The notes below the pieces were generated by a model that worked only from the letters and a program-made list of their open reading frames with translations, was not told where the DNA came from and did not search any database. A stretch of DNA of 64,000 nt from Methanoculleus marisnigri JR1 (lineage in GTDB: Archaea > Halobacteriota > Methanomicrobia > Methanomicrobiales > Methanoculleaceae), in NCBI RefSeq assembly GCF_000015825.1, contig NC_009051.1:924695-988694 (forward strand), in the 5' to 3' direction. The translations under genes were made by a program, and so were the position numbers. The stretch's first letter is position 1. Each line of letters starts with the position of its first letter. Shown here in pieces: positions 22,060-61,135 of this stretch.

Positions 22060-22638
22060 TTAGGGGAGTAGGTTAATCGGCTCGATGGCGGGCGGAACCG
22101 TCTTCTTGATCGGGTAAACGGCACCGGCGGCCGGCTGCAGGTTCACCGTAAATGCCTTGTTTACTCCCGGGTTCGGGACGGCCACTACGAGCTCGAACTG
22201 TTCGCCCGGCTCAAGGAGCATGTCGCTTGTACCGTCGTCGGAGTTGTACCGCTCCACAACTGCCCACTCGTTAGCCGCTATGCTGCTTTCATCAGCCGCA
22301 TAGGTCAGCACATCGTGGTGATCTTCATCCACGTAGGTGACAACCATCTGTTTTACATCGATGGCCGTTCCACCGGCGGTGTTCGCAACAACGAACGTGA
22401 TGGAGCCTAAGGTTGATAGGGAGGCACTGTCCTGCAGTCCATAGACGTAGCCGACGATCTCCATGCTGGAGCTGGCCTGGCTTACACCTGTGTGGACGAC
22501 TTCCTGGCTCTTCTGTGTCGTGAAGAAGCCAGCGCCGAGCACGACGTACGAGAAGACCGCGGCCACGACGATGAACGCGATCAGGACGATCGCCGCCTCA
22601 AGCCCGGTGAATGCATTATCGTTGAATTGTCTCTTCAT
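22060..22638 (-). CDS. flaB: Archaellin (second gene of tandem pair)
   Basis: Archaellin is the filament subunit. The 192-residue prearchaellin has a short charged leader (MKRQFNDNAFTG) cut by the prepilin-type peptidase after G12, then the hydrophobic assembly helix LEAAIVLIAFIVVAAVFSYV. The outer beta domain is variable. No N-X-S/T sequon is present in the whole protein. Residues from AFTGLEAA to about VVHTGV are identical to the upstream paralogue, with only synonymous DNA differences. GGGTGATG precedes the ATG, 13 bp after the first gene. Confidence 0.95.
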   Translation of the reverse strand: MKRQFNDNAFTGLEAAIVLIAFIVVAAVFSYVVLGAGFFTTQKSQEVVHTGVSQASSSMEIVGYVYGLQDSASLSTLGSITFVVANTAGGTAIDVKQMVVTYVDEDHHDVLTYAADESSIAANEWAVVERYNSDDGTSDMLLEPGEQFELVVAVPNPGVNKAFTVNLQPAAGAVYPIKKTVPPAIEPINLLP

Positions 22639-22651
22639 TTACATCACCCTC

Positions 22652-23221
22652 TCAGTAGACCTCGTAGTATTTGCCGTCCTCCAGGCTCGGCGGAGCGTTC
22701 CGCTCGAGCGGGTAGGCCGCACCCTGGTCGGGCCGGATCTCGACGATGAACTTGTCGTTCGCGGTGATTGAAACCACGTCCGGGGTGATGGTCACCTTTA
22801 CGAACTCGAATTTCTCGAGGAGATTGTTAGCGGTCGTTGTTACGTCTTTACCGTCTTTGTACCACTTCATGTCGGCCGATATGTCGGCATACGTAAAGGT
22901 CTCCAGGTCATCTTTGGTCGAGACAACATAGGTCACCTTTTGCATGTCGATCGGCGATCCGCCGGCTGCCAGCTGGAGATAGAACGTGATGGTATCGACC
23001 TCGCTGCTCGAGGCCTGTATGACAACAGGTCCCGACACTTCCATGTTCGAGCTCGCCTGGGCCACACCCGTGTGGACGACCTCCTGGCTCTTCTGTGTCG
23101 TGAAGAAGCCGGCGCCGAGCACCACGTACGAGAAGACTGCGGCCACGACGATGAACGCGATCAGGACGATCGCGGCCTCAAGGCCGGTGAATGCATCTTC
23201 GTTTCTCATCATTTTGCTCAT
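22652..23221 (-). CDS. flaB: Archaellin (first gene of tandem pair)
   Basis: This 189-residue prearchaellin has leader MSKMMRNEDAFTG, cleaved after G13, and the same assembly helix as its neighbour. The outer domain (from about residue 60) differs strongly between the two, so they probably occupy different filament positions or states. It too lacks any N-X-S/T sequon. GGAGG ten bases before the ATG is a strong ribosome site, and a TATA element lies about 85 bp upstream. The genes stand apart from the arlCE-J operon, which is usual when archaellin needs its own expression level. Confidence 0.95.
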   Translation of the reverse strand: MSKMMRNEDAFTGLEAAIVLIAFIVVAAVFSYVVLGAGFFTTQKSQEVVHTGVAQASSNMEVSGPVVIQASSSEVDTITFYLQLAAGGSPIDMQKVTYVVSTKDDLETFTYADISADMKWYKDGKDVTTTANNLLEKFEFVKVTITPDVVSITANDKFIVEIRPDQGAAYPLERNAPPSLEDGKYYEVY

Positions 23222-23581: not shown

Positions 23582-24250
23582 ATGACGAAGAAGCAGGATT
23601 TTATCTACGTTTTTCTGGGAATTGCGGTCGTCCTCGTGATGGCCCTGATCATCAAGCCGGCGGCGACCGGCGAACTGCCGGGCTTATGGGGGTCCGGGGA
23701 ACCGGAGCCGGGAATAACCCCGACCTGGACGCCCACGATACCCACCACGGTGCCGACGCCCACGCCGGTGCCCACCTGGGACGGGAAGCCGCGGCCGGTC
23801 GGGTTCGTCGACCCGGGGACCTACCAGATTCCGATCGAGGAGAACCACCTGAACATGACCGCCCCGCCGGGGGCCGTGGCCGGGCCCGGCATCACCCGGT
23901 GGGTGACTTACGCGACGATCGACGGGCAGTGGTCGGGGACGACCGGGATCATCCGGGTCCCGTTCCCGATGTGGCGGCTCGACTACTCGGATATCACGAC
24001 CTCAAACGACGAGATCCCGCTCTTCAACTGCCAGGTGATGGACGCCGAAGACCCGAACCGGTTCGTCCGGGTCGTCACCCTCAACTTCGCCGACTTCTTG
24101 GGGACGAAGGAGAACCCCGATCTCAGGAAGCAACAGTGGGTGAGCACCTTCTACGAAGGATATCATGATTACTACTTCGTCATCAACACCCGGCGCATCG
24201 ACTCCTACCACTTGAAGATCCAGGTGCCGGAGACGTACCTGGATGCATGA
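23582..24250 (+). CDS. Membrane-anchored extracellular protein with Thr/Pro linker, family not recognised
   Basis: This 222-residue protein has one N-terminal helix (FIYVFLGIAVVLVMALII). A linker of about 40 residues rich in Pro and Thr follows (PTWTPTIPTTVPTPTPVPTW), then a domain of about 140 residues rich in aromatic residues and beta structure. The anchor plus Thr/Pro stalk is typical of archaeal cell-surface proteins and could be glycosylated; NMT is one sequon. MTKKQDF is chosen as start because GGAAGG precedes it; the frame is open 38 codons earlier. It is divergent from the archaellins. Confidence 0.7.
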   Translation: MTKKQDFIYVFLGIAVVLVMALIIKPAATGELPGLWGSGEPEPGITPTWTPTIPTTVPTPTPVPTWDGKPRPVGFVDPGTYQIPIEENHLNMTAPPGAVAGPGITRWVTYATIDGQWSGTTGIIRVPFPMWRLDYSDITTSNDEIPLFNCQVMDAEDPNRFVRVVTLNFADFLGTKENPDLRKQQWVSTFYEGYHDYYFVINTRRIDSYHLKIQVPETYLDA

Positions 24251-24335
24251 GACGGGTGCGTGAAACTGGAATCTTTTAGGGGGGTGCGCACGGTCCCCCG
24301 GGAGCATCTCCTCCCCGTTTCCAACCTGCACGGGA

Positions 24336-24550
24336 TGGTGCTCCTGCTCCTGCCCGAAACCCTTCGGTTTTCTCAAGCTCCGGACTCGCAACTCGCACCT
24401 CCGGTGCTCGAACTCCGTTCGCACCCGACGGTGCTCAAGCTCCGGCCTTCCGGCCCGTCGCATTCCCATGGAACGTCGTTCCTACCGATGCTCCTGCTCC
24501 GCTCCTCGAAGACCTTCGGTCTTCTCGAACTCCTGCCCTTCGGCCAGTCG
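24336..24550. repeat. Hairpin-array repeat, copy 1
   Basis: This segment is a run of short inverted repeats with three- or four-base loops: CACC-TCC-GGTG, CACC-CGAC-GGTG, GGCC-TTCC-GGCC, TTCC-CAT-GGAA, and the 7-bp stem GAAGACC-TTC-GGTCTTC. They are joined by recurring linkers such as CTCGAACTCC and GTCG. The same units recur near 43.5, 52.4 and 60.8 kb. It lies between two convergent genes. No gene is supported in 24251-24577. A T-run on the minus strand at about 24562-24567 may terminate speB. Confidence 0.7.
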
Positions 24551-24577
24551 TTTTTAGGGAAAAAATTCTTGGGGCCG

Positions 24578-25429
24578 TCACTGCCCGGCGAGCCAGTGCC
24601 GGGCGATGAACTCCCGCACGATCTGCGCCGCCACCGCCGCCGTCTGCCCGGTATCGAACGGCGCGACCTCAACGTAATCGAAACCCGCGACCTCGGGCGC
24701 GAGGGCACGCACGACCTCCCGGATATCGAGCGGCGTCATCCCGAACGGTTCGGGCGTCCCGAGGCCGGGGGTGAGACAGCAGTCGATCGCATCTGCGTCG
24801 ATCGAGAGGTAGATCCTCCTCCCCGCAACGTGCTCCCGGACCTCCCGGAGGACGGCGTCGATCCCCTGTTCCCGCACCGTATCGGCGGTGTAGAGGCGCG
24901 TCCTCTCCGCCGCAATCTCATACTGCTCGCGATCGCCGCTCCGGGCACCTATGATGACGACGTCTTCGACCGTATCGAGGACGCGCCGGGTGACGCACCC
25001 ATGACTGTAAGGCGTCCCGTCGAGTTCGTCCCGGAGATCCAGGTGGGCGTCGCAGACGACGTAGACATCCGGCCGGACGGCCCGGACCGTGCCGACAGTC
25101 GCGGTGTGCTCGCCGCCGAGCATCACCGGCACCTTGTTGTCGCGGACGATATCCCCCGCGACGTCCGCCACCTGCCCGGCGACCTCCTCGGGCAGCCGGG
25201 AGACCGCAAGGTCGCCGAGATCCGTGATCGGCACTTCAGAAAAGTCTATTTTGGTCGCGGGATCGTAGGACTCGAAATTGAACGAGACCTCCCGGATCGC
25301 CCGGGGCCCGAACCGCGTCCCCGGCCGAAACGACGTCGTACCGTCGTAGGGCACGCCGAAGACGGCGTAGCGGGCATCCTCGTATGACGCATCCGCATCC
25401 GCAAAATGGAGATGGGCGAGTTCGTGCAT
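24578..25429 (-). CDS. speB: Agmatinase/ureohydrolase family protein
   Basis: Ureohydrolases of this type hydrolyse agmatine to putrescine and urea at a binuclear manganese site. The 283-residue protein keeps the metal motifs GGEHTATVG, VCDAHLDLRDE and SIDADAID. After the last, the usual Asp-Pro is replaced by DCC (around residue 210), which is unusual. It lies directly after the eIF5A gene in the same direction. The ATG at 25429 is used; an in-frame TTG at 25462 would overlap eIF5A by 8 bp. It may serve hypusine formation, which in some archaea uses agmatine. Confidence 0.88.
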   Translation of the reverse strand: MHELAHLHFADADASYEDARYAVFGVPYDGTTSFRPGTRFGPRAIREVSFNFESYDPATKIDFSEVPITDLGDLAVSRLPEEVAGQVADVAGDIVRDNKVPVMLGGEHTATVGTVRAVRPDVYVVCDAHLDLRDELDGTPYSHGCVTRRVLDTVEDVVIIGARSGDREQYEIAAERTRLYTADTVREQGIDAVLREVREHVAGRRIYLSIDADAIDCCLTPGLGTPEPFGMTPLDIREVVRALAPEVAGFDYVEVAPFDTGQTAAVAAQIVREFIARHWLAGQ

Positions 25430-25454
25430 GCCCGTTTTCGTAAGCCAGAAAAGG

Positions 25455-25832
25455 TCACTCAAGTTTCTTCTTGCCCAGGGATGATATGTACGGGATCTCC
25501 TTACCCGGCTCGAGTCCGGCGACCTGCTCTTCGGTCACGTTGAGCTCGAACATATCGAAGTCCTTGACGTCCATAAGCTGGACTGTCGTGCCGGCGATCG
25601 AGATGACCTGTGCCATCTTCCGCTCCACTATGGGCACGTAGGTCTTTGCCGAGACCGGCTGGACGATCGAGCGTTTGACGCCGTCGAAGATGCCGATACA
25701 GTCGATTCGGGACTTTGCCGCTCCGTGCTTCCCGGGCTTGGAGGTAGCGATGGAGACAATCCTGCAAGGTTCATCCTCTACGACGACGTAACGTCCCTCT
25801 TTCAGTTTCCCAACTTCTGTCTGTTCCTTCAT
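25455..25832 (-). CDS. eif5A: Translation initiation factor 5A (aIF5A)
   Basis: aIF5A helps ribosomes form difficult peptide bonds and is modified to hypusine. The protein has 125 residues, the normal archaeal length. The modified lysine is K35 in ATSKPGKHGAAK. The N-terminal SH3-like and C-terminal OB parts are complete. It is followed by agmatinase 26 bp later. A minus-strand TATA-like sequence at about 25880-25892 is shared with the divergent phosphatase gene region. Confidence 0.97.
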   Translation of the reverse strand: MKEQTEVGKLKEGRYVVVEDEPCRIVSIATSKPGKHGAAKSRIDCIGIFDGVKRSIVQPVSAKTYVPIVERKMAQVISIAGTTVQLMDVKDFDMFELNVTEEQVAGLEPGKEIPYISSLGKKKLE

Positions 25833-43591: not shown

Positions 43592-43738
43592 TATCGCCAC
43601 GCACTGCCCCCGCCCCGCAGGAAGGGGGAGGAGCGCGAAGCGCGGGTGGGGTGGGGTGACGAGAAGTACAGATCTTTGAGAGTTGAGACAGGGGAGGGGG
43701 CATGCCCCCTCCCCGTCAGCCCCTCCCCCAAGGCGATA
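43592..43738. repeat. Palindromic intergenic element, copy 3 (core)
   Basis: The core runs from TATCGCC to GGCGATA (inverted ends) and contains the hairpin GCGC-GAA-GCGC and a perfect 24-bp palindrome at 43691-43714 (G-rich arm, centre GCATGC, C-rich arm). To the left, 43526-43590 holds hairpin units including GAAGACC-like CTTCGG stems and GATGTCCC-CAC-GGGACATC. To the right is CCCACGGTCCAG. No gene is supported in 43417-43988. Confidence 0.75.
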
Positions 43739-52197: not shown

Positions 52198-52393
52198 TAC
52201 CGGGTTTTGCGCGCGATTACTCTATTCCTGATAGTGCTGCCTGATTCTATTGCTGTCCCATCTTGCGAGATTTTTCGCAGATTTTCCTGTAATTTCGCCG
52301 TTGGCCCAATATGTATATCTGCGTTGTGAACGGCCTCTTGCCGAGAGCACGGGGAGCCTCTGAAGAAGAACCGTGGACGGCTTCCCACTGGCT

Positions 52394-52955
52394 TCGCACC
52401 TTCGGTGCTCTAGCTCCGGTTCTCGAAGACCTCCGGCCTTCTCGAACTCCTGTCCTAAGGACAGTCGTTCTCCGAACCATCGCCTATCGCCATGACTGCC
52501 CCCGCCCCGAGGTGTGGGGTGCGACGGGCCATAGGGCCGGAGCATGAGCACCGTAGGTGCGAATGAGGAGCGCGAAGCGCGGGCGGGGTGGGGGCAACAG
52601 TTAGAGGCTTACATGGTAGAGACAGGGGAGGGGGCAGGCCCCCCTTCCCACCTGACGGTGGTCGAGCTCTGCTCCTTCGGAGCATCGCACTCCCCGTCGG
52701 CCCCTTCCCCAATGGCGATAAACGATGCGTGCCCGAAGGGCAGGCGGAGTTCGAGCACCAAAGGTGCGAGTCTCCCACGGTCCACAGTATGGGAGAACCT
52801 GGAAATGTAAAGGGTCCCGGCTCGCTCCCTGGATAAGGCTTTCCGCCAGGCTAGCACCAGGAGGTGTTCGAACCCTGTTCCTGTCGAAACATCGTTTATC
52901 GCCATGGCTGCCCCGCTCCTCAGGAAGGGGAGGAGGCCGAAGGCCAGGGCAGGTG
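52394..52955. repeat. Palindromic intergenic element, copy 4 (largest, nested) with partial second copy
   Basis: Hairpin units open the region (CACC-TTC-GGTG, CTGTCC-TAA-GGACAG). The core runs from TATCGCC (52485) to GGCGATA (52720) and holds GGCC-ATA-GGGCC, GCACC-GTA-GGTGC, GCGC-GAA-GCGC, a G-rich/C-rich stem and TGCTCC-TTC-GGAGCA. ATGGCGATAAACGATG at 52713-52728 has a perfect inverted partner at 52890-52905, followed by a truncated second core. No gene is supported in 52173-53023. Confidence 0.75.
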
Positions 52956-60928: not shown

Positions 60929-61135
60929 TGGGGATATCGCCACAGGGGGAGGGGCTGACGGGGAGGGGGGGTGCAGCCCCCCTCCCCTGTCTCTACCTGG
61001 TTTGAGGACACCGCTAACCCCCACCCCGCCCGGCCTTCGGCCTCCTCCTCCGCACCTTCGGTGCTCATGCTCCGGCCCTATGGCCCCGTCGCACCCCGCC
61101 CCGGGGGGCGGGGGCAGTGCGTGGCGATATCCCCA
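60929..61135. mobile_element. Palindromic intergenic element, copy 5, with 15-bp terminal inverted repeats (MITE-like)
   Basis: TGGGGATATCGCCAC at 60929-60943 is the exact reverse complement of GTGGCGATATCCCCA at 61121-61135. Between them lie the G-rich/C-rich stem (11 bp, loop GTGCAG), GGCC-TTC-GGCC, GCACC-TTC-GGTGC, and GGCC-CTAT-GGCC. The core is in opposite orientation to copies 3 and 4 and the same orientation as copy 2. Hairpin units also occupy 60775-60880 to the left. There is no coding capacity for a transposase. No gene is supported in 60560-61378. Confidence 0.7.

Follow-up and report, generated by a model that had tools for sequence, protein, structure and literature searches.

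Short nested double-hairpin units of Methanoculleus are probably very small mobile DNA elements whose turnover resembles RNA covariation

The hairpins at positions 24336-24550 of the analysed window, a stretch of 64,000 nucleotides (C1:924695-988694) of the single-contig, 2,478,101-bp genome of Methanoculleus marisnigri JR1, belong to a family of short dispersed units that each consist of two hairpins. Comparison of the copies with one another and between related genomes gives good support to the view that these units of Methanoculleus, which are very small and non-coding, are mobile elements that move at the level of DNA. More tentatively, they may constitute an archaeal chromosomal mobile DNA that targets hairpin loops, multiplies in its own hairpins by a machinery that is neither a Y1 transposase nor reverse transcription, and mimics RNA covariation by its turnover.

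The units follow the plan TC-[SL1]-TC-NNRC-TC-[SL2]-TC-GYNN, where SL1 and SL2 are the first and second hairpin, each bounded by TC, and have a length of 43-50 nt (roughly 45). The commonest SL1 stems are GCACC/GGTGC, GAAGACC/GGTCTTC and GAAACCC/GGGTTTC; those of SL2 are hypervariable (CTGTCC/GGACAG, CGTTCC/GGAACG, CGGACG/CGTCCG, CTGCCG/CGGCAG and others). TC stands directly before SL1 in 118 of 143 units (background 8%). Positions 24300-24600 of the window gave 94 blastn matches within the genome and a covariance model of the unit (R1) gave at least 177, a lower bound obtained with 150 of 3135 candidate places scored. The model was made from alignment A2; alignment A1 (MAFFT) misplaces the long SL1 type and its SL2 part alone was used for counting. 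Units were found on both strands, often side by side in opposite orientation, and over the whole chromosome the two orientations were judged by eye to be about equal. R1 matches were numerous in almost every Methanoculleus genome sampled and in one genome of a second genus of the same family (G119), other families of the order having 0-8 per genome; in a phylum-wide sample of 295 genomes matches were confined to Methanoculleus apart from one single match. Copy number varies strongly within the genus, and four of its genomes are poor in units (G002, G020, G023 and G046); the rich ones include G000, G042, G044 and G006. An Rfam search of the units gave no match, nor did a scan of viral contigs for one frequent unit. 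Near-perfect tandem arrays of a single unit were observed at C1:1007817-1008146, 1429836-1430435 and 1923556-1923960 (periods of 49, 46 and 45 nt) and at C1:1229424-1229775, 307427-307701 and 897081-897900 (44, 46 and 63 nt), and each of these six arrays has its own, different stems.

Judged from aligned orthologous sites, whole units are present or absent between closely related species, directly after TC and ending in TC. The comparisons drew on stretches around matches and on one syntenic block of 0.4 Mb, over which M. marisnigri is collinear with genome G042 and about 92% identical to it. Whole-unit differences, their flanks well conserved, were seen against G042 at genome positions 712774 (131 nt), 921202 (40 nt) and 1040592 (42 nt), each placed after CCCCTC^CCC and ending in TC. 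G042 has an extra 46 bp in an SL1 loop (window position ~52553), and a 45-bp unit was located within CGTTCC^...GGAACG when locus L149 was compared with L019. The spacer orthologous to the 24336-24550 cluster is bare, about 100 bp long and unit-free in three species (G008, G012 and G005), and contains different sets of units in G042, G048 and G049. These bare spacers, together with the nested order described below, argue for gain rather than loss.

A preferred insertion site is another unit's hairpin, at the boundary between 5' arm and loop, with nesting two to four deep. Of 143 distinct units, 49 have flanks that pair with one another for 5 bp or longer (12.7 in permutations); mostly it is the arms of another unit, in the correct grammar, that pair in this way, e.g. 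CGCTCC-tc-[unit]-ttc-tcc-GGAGCG-TCG. Hairpins of both the SL1 and the SL2 type are interrupted, mostly at this boundary. Excision of the innermost units restored 40 second-level and then 4 third-level units; in controls with the excision windows moved by 9-30 nt, 0, 2, 5, 14 and 19 second-level units were restored. At locus C1:1689522 four levels were read by eye. The cluster at 24336-24550 lies between convergent genes, an open reading frame ending at 24250 (+ strand) and a gene at 24578-25462 (- strand) that we take from its translation to be agmatinase-like. It contains unit B (24421-24465) in SL2 of unit A (24395-24481), which is itself in a decayed hairpin (24388-24491):

24350-24385, + strand: remnant unit, from direct reading and a weak covariance model match at 24364-24391; orphan 5' arm CTGCCC (24350-24355), SL1 GAAACCC-TTC-GGTTTTC (24356-24372, one broken pair), linker TC-AAGC-TC and truncated SL2 arm CGGAC.
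24388-24491, + strand: outermost, decayed SL1-type hairpin, GCAAC (24388-24392)...GATGC (24487-24491), split by unit A.
24395-24481, + strand: unit A; SL1 GCACCTCCGGTGC (24395-24407), TC-GAAC-TC, SL2 arms CGTTC (24416-24420) and GGAACG (24470-24475) split by unit B, then TC-GTTC.
24421-24465, + strand: unit B, which the nesting test places within SL2 of unit A (R1 match at 24419-24463, 59.4 bits, E 7e-16); SL1 GCACCCGACGGTGC, TC-AAGC-TC, SL2 CGGCCTTCCGGCCCG, TC-GCAT-TC.
24500-24505, + strand: orphan 5' arm CGCTCC of an outer SL2, its 3' arm missing at the locus.
24508-24553, + strand: unit C (R1 match at 24506-24553, E 6e-10); SL1 GAAGACCTTCGGTCTTC (24508-24524), TC-GAAC-TC, SL2 CTGCCCTTCGGCCAG (24533-24547), TC-GTTT.

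The hairpins of the cluster include CACC-TCC-GGTG (SL1, 24395-24407), CACC-CGAC-GGTG (24421-24434), GGCC-TTCC-GGCC (within 24443-24457) and GACC-TTC-GGTC (within 24508-24524). Its broken structures have complete counterparts at other loci. The arrangement of 24388-24491 occurs with intact arms, GCACC[unit]CTACC-GGTGC, in L023, L034 and L057; the SL2 hairpin of unit A is present without interruption, CGTTCCCATGGAACG, in L017, L020 and L023; and the SL2 with the orphan arm is complete as CGCTCC[unit C-type]...GGAGCG in L012, L014, L055 and L113.

The original prediction held that the stems of the cluster differ between copies and yet stay complementary, and took this compensation as a sign of selection on an RNA or DNA hairpin or of a replication mechanism that acts on palindromes. 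The stems it quoted exist in the window, although several lie outside 24336-24550: CTGTCC/GGACAG at 52450-52464, CTCC/GGAG at ~52.67 kb, GCGC-GAA-GCGC at 43633 and 52570, and GGCC-GAA-GGCC at 52935 and 61032 (- strand). The complementarity itself was borne out by a covariation test over the genomic copies, in which pairing was far beyond chance. Copies were captured blind to pairing, by their flanks only (CTC-NNNY-TC-C...TCG) and with interrupted copies included; the 95 distinct SL2 segments so obtained had 430 Watson-Crick pairs out of 570, against a null of 290±9 and a maximum of 324 in 2000 permutations. The 4-mers outside SL2, which likewise played no part in choosing the copies, also covary (88 of 119 against 53±4), one 4-mer position of alignment A1 having GC 25 times, AU 21 times and no GU. 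In alignment A1, which was chosen for paired SL2, a choice of which the flank-captured test is free, both sides change in 9 of 10 pairs, with a score for covariation of 0.534 against 0.181 (0 of 500 shuffles); in slid registers every score was <=0.106. As the copies were captured by their flanks only and the outer 4-mers covary too, the complementarity is real. The single strand has a better fold than shuffled sequences (z = -3.9 with DNA parameters).

Strong covariation of this kind, at 430 of 570 pairs and an A1 score of 0.534 against 0.181, is what structured RNA (terminators, processing signals or regulatory RNAs) under selection for pairing in the transcript would produce. The position of the cluster between convergent genes would suit such RNA, as would the lower change per site in stems than in loops of orthologous hairpins (1.8% versus 4.1%, small numbers). 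We nevertheless consider it very improbable that the units are structured RNA. In stems with at most one mismatch, a recurrent C·A closing-pair variant being set aside, ~21 A·C and ~16 G·T mismatches were counted, and a second count gave 14 and 11. Because G·T is no commoner than A·C, there is no signature of RNA wobble. Thirty orthologous hairpins, a small sample, had 164 pairs unchanged, 6 broken on one side and 0 compensated. Neither covariation with G-U tolerance nor compensation in place was thus found in the stems and orthologs compared. The occurrence of units on both strands, often adjacent in opposite orientation, the bare spacer in related species and the lack of an Rfam match also speak against structured RNA. 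The compensation was not borne out as a sign of selection on RNA: by the original prediction's own measure, whether stem mutations are compensated more often than by chance, selection fails, on a small ortholog sample. Weak selection for keeping a palindrome is possible.

An apparent A·C excess in SL2 (55 versus 16) was rejected as a signal, being mainly due to the C·A closing-pair variant (position 0, 20 single-mismatch cases) and gone elsewhere. This closing pair, with ATCG in place of GTCG, is kept across many copies. A symmetrical C·C or T·T mismatch recurs at position 4 of SL2 in numerous copies (CTGCCCTTCGGCCAG, CGGCCCTTCGGCCCG, CGGTCCTTCGGTCCG).

Throughout the 0.4-Mb synteny set, single stem changes were uncompensated and both-sided changes were observed only as blocks, in which whole hairpins had been exchanged between the flanking TC dinucleotides of orthologous slots with the flanks intact. 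At 732479 GAAAACGC-TTC-GCGTTTTC stands against GCACC-TAAC-GGTGC; at 786706 GAAACTC-TTC-GAGTTTC against GAAGAAC-TTC-GTTCTTC, three pairs at once; at 719367 GGGCG-TTC-CGCCC against TGCTCC[unit]GGAGCA. In a swap inside the 24336-24550 cluster, at 949202 in the SL1 slot of unit C, GAAGACC-TTC-GGTCTTC stands against GCACC-TTC-GGTGC (G042 slot, GCACCTTCGGTGC). What looks like compensation in the stems thus comes from cassettes, each a perfect palindrome, that are inserted, copied and swapped whole, and the variation of the stems is best read, from the copies and orthologs compared, as turnover of such ready-made palindromes. The numbers behind this are small, and many of the identical slots come from one tandem array. 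This fits the second alternative of the original prediction, a mechanism that acts on palindromes.

The substrate of this turnover would be DNA hairpins, extruded or single-stranded, e.g. on the lagging strand, on which a trans-acting enzyme or template switching at hairpins may act; ectopic gene conversion would swap hairpin cassettes, and identical tandem units could result from slippage or unequal recombination. The chances of a hairpin-specific enzyme of an unrecognised kind and of template switching with gene conversion seem about even. That no dedicated enzyme is involved, so that forks stall at hairpins and the nascent strand switches template via TC or stem microhomology and returns, thereby inserting, nesting, swapping and tandemly amplifying hairpin cassettes, is in our opinion possible rather than probable. 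Such switching accounts for the insertion at hairpins, the short TC homology, the en-bloc swaps, the identical tandem arrays with periods of 44-63 nt and the lack of a Y1 or reverse transcriptase gene. However, the inserted pieces have consistent unit boundaries, hundreds of distant loci would need frequent long-range switching, and hairpins occur everywhere, yet the units are limited to a single genus and one close relative.

Ends of Y1 elements have hairpins, a dinucleotide target and pairing 4-mers, and the hairpin ends of the units, their TC dinucleotide and the 4-mers that pair across SL2 resemble these. Even so, it is unlikely that the units are elements like repetitive extragenic palindromes (REPs), or derived from IS200/IS605, moved by a Y1 transposase (RAYT/TnpA); an HUH enzyme that was lost or escaped detection is possible. 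The Y1 family PF01797 is absent from the M. marisnigri genome and from 28 of 35 genomes of the genus; it was detected mainly in genomes with few units (G002, G014, G020, G022 and G023), with up to 19 matches in G020, so that Y1 and unit abundance trend oppositely in the genus. An IS608-like guide-sequence model, prompted by the NNRC-GYNN pairing across SL2, was set aside for lack of a Y1 gene.

Several points weigh against mobility of the units. No mobilising gene was found: Y1 transposase (PF01797) and reverse transcriptase (PF00078) both gave 0 matches in the M. marisnigri genome, with positive controls. There are few clean insertions specific to one species, about five, and an outgroup does not settle for each of them whether a unit was gained or lost. 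In several cases it is ambiguous where exactly the unit ends and whether TC belongs to the element or is a true duplication of the target. The cassette swaps could reflect conversion instead of mobility, and in a periodic array some units, up to 19, are restored even when the excision is shifted.

No earlier description of the unit family was found in the open-access literature, most subscription journals lying outside the search. The nearest analogue is the GC clusters of yeast mitochondrial DNA, 42-nt hairpin sequences with AG or ACT flanking repeats that merge and shuffle (PMC4478555). As in the Saccharomyces clusters (e.g. GC42), hairpin units are merged and shuffled, are present or absent at homologous sites and have no known dedicated transposase (PMC4478555). 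The Methanoculleus units share with them the short double hairpin, the high dispersed copy number and the short direct repeats (TC...TC) that flank the variable sites. GC clusters differ in being mitochondrial and in merging to a joined 86-nt cluster (PMC4478555), whereas the units lie on an archaeal chromosome, are bounded by TC, keep to a fixed grammar of two hairpins, insert where arm and loop meet and nest as many as four levels deep. Their origin is assumed to be independent of the mitochondrial elements. We know of no TC grammar or self-nesting in the double-hairpin elements of Allomyces mitochondria and in related hairpin repeats. These are similar in having two adjacent hairpins and in being dispersed, lineage-restricted and inferred to be mobile, as far as the citing account goes (Paquin et al. 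2000, as cited in PMC2800124).

REPs and their mosaics (bacterial interspersed mosaic elements, BIMEs), including the GTAG- and CGTC-tagged REPs with RAYT, are likewise short intergenic high-copy palindromes with tetranucleotides beside the stem and paired inverted copies; the surveyed families are bacterial, with no archaeal species in the text of the survey, and nesting in one another's loops does not figure in its abstract (PMC3733652). The reverse strand of the units has GGAG beside SL2, comparable to the 5' GTAG/GGAG or CGTC tag of the single REP palindrome, and inverted pairs occur; but the units have two hairpins and TC boundaries, and a RAYT-type gene is absent from the genome. Recurrent G-quadruplex motifs (rPQS + C3TC3) were described in Methanomicrobiaceae (PMC8044849). 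They share intergenic clusters with the units, and the G-rich hairpins that receive units at CCCCCCTC^CCC appear to be rPQS; the published results cover the G-rich motif and its folding, not double hairpins, mobility or nesting (PMC8044849). Two satellite families of 45 and 51 nt were reported for M. marisnigri, lengths within the range of the identical tandem unit arrays; this catalogue covers arrays only and does not describe dispersed nested copies or mobility (PMC6749651).

Strong stem covariation in a multicopy sequence need not mean selection on RNA when palindromes are copied and swapped whole, and statistics of covariation would be led astray where they handle dispersed repeats as if these were homologous RNAs. 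In the units the mitochondrial GC clusters have a counterpart in an archaeon, and Methanoculleus, with its numerous species, its nested copies by which insertions can be dated, and its unit-rich and unit-poor genomes, is a hunting ground for the machinery.

Elsewhere in the window the following units were located:

52394-52482, + strand: unit with SL1 at 52396-52408 and an interrupted SL2, CGGTTC/GAACC (covariance model matches at 52394-52422 and 52423-52470); the unit nested in it has SL1 at 52425-52441 and SL2 CTGTCCTAAGGACAG at 52450-52464.
52519-52562, - strand: unit (67.6 bits) whose SL1 loop holds the extra 46-bp unit in G042, from ortholog comparison with L145.
52646-52690, + strand: unit (53.9 bits) in the composite element of 52394-52482, beside a G-rich/C-rich hairpin.
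52720-52769, - strand: unit (37.6 bits) with SL1 GCACCTTTGGTGC, inverted relative to 52394-52482.
61050-61094, + strand: further unit (53 bits).

At 52320-52800, as at L035, L024 and other loci, larger composite inverted elements are framed by CCACGGTCCACTG / CAGTGGACCGTGG and GGCGATA motifs; these contain G-rich hairpins, probably the published rPQS, and carry oppositely oriented double hairpins on their two arms. Two adjacent pilin/archaellin-like genes at 22060-23221 (- strand), of 192 and 189 aa, have nearly identical N-terminal halves and apparently represent a tandem duplication.
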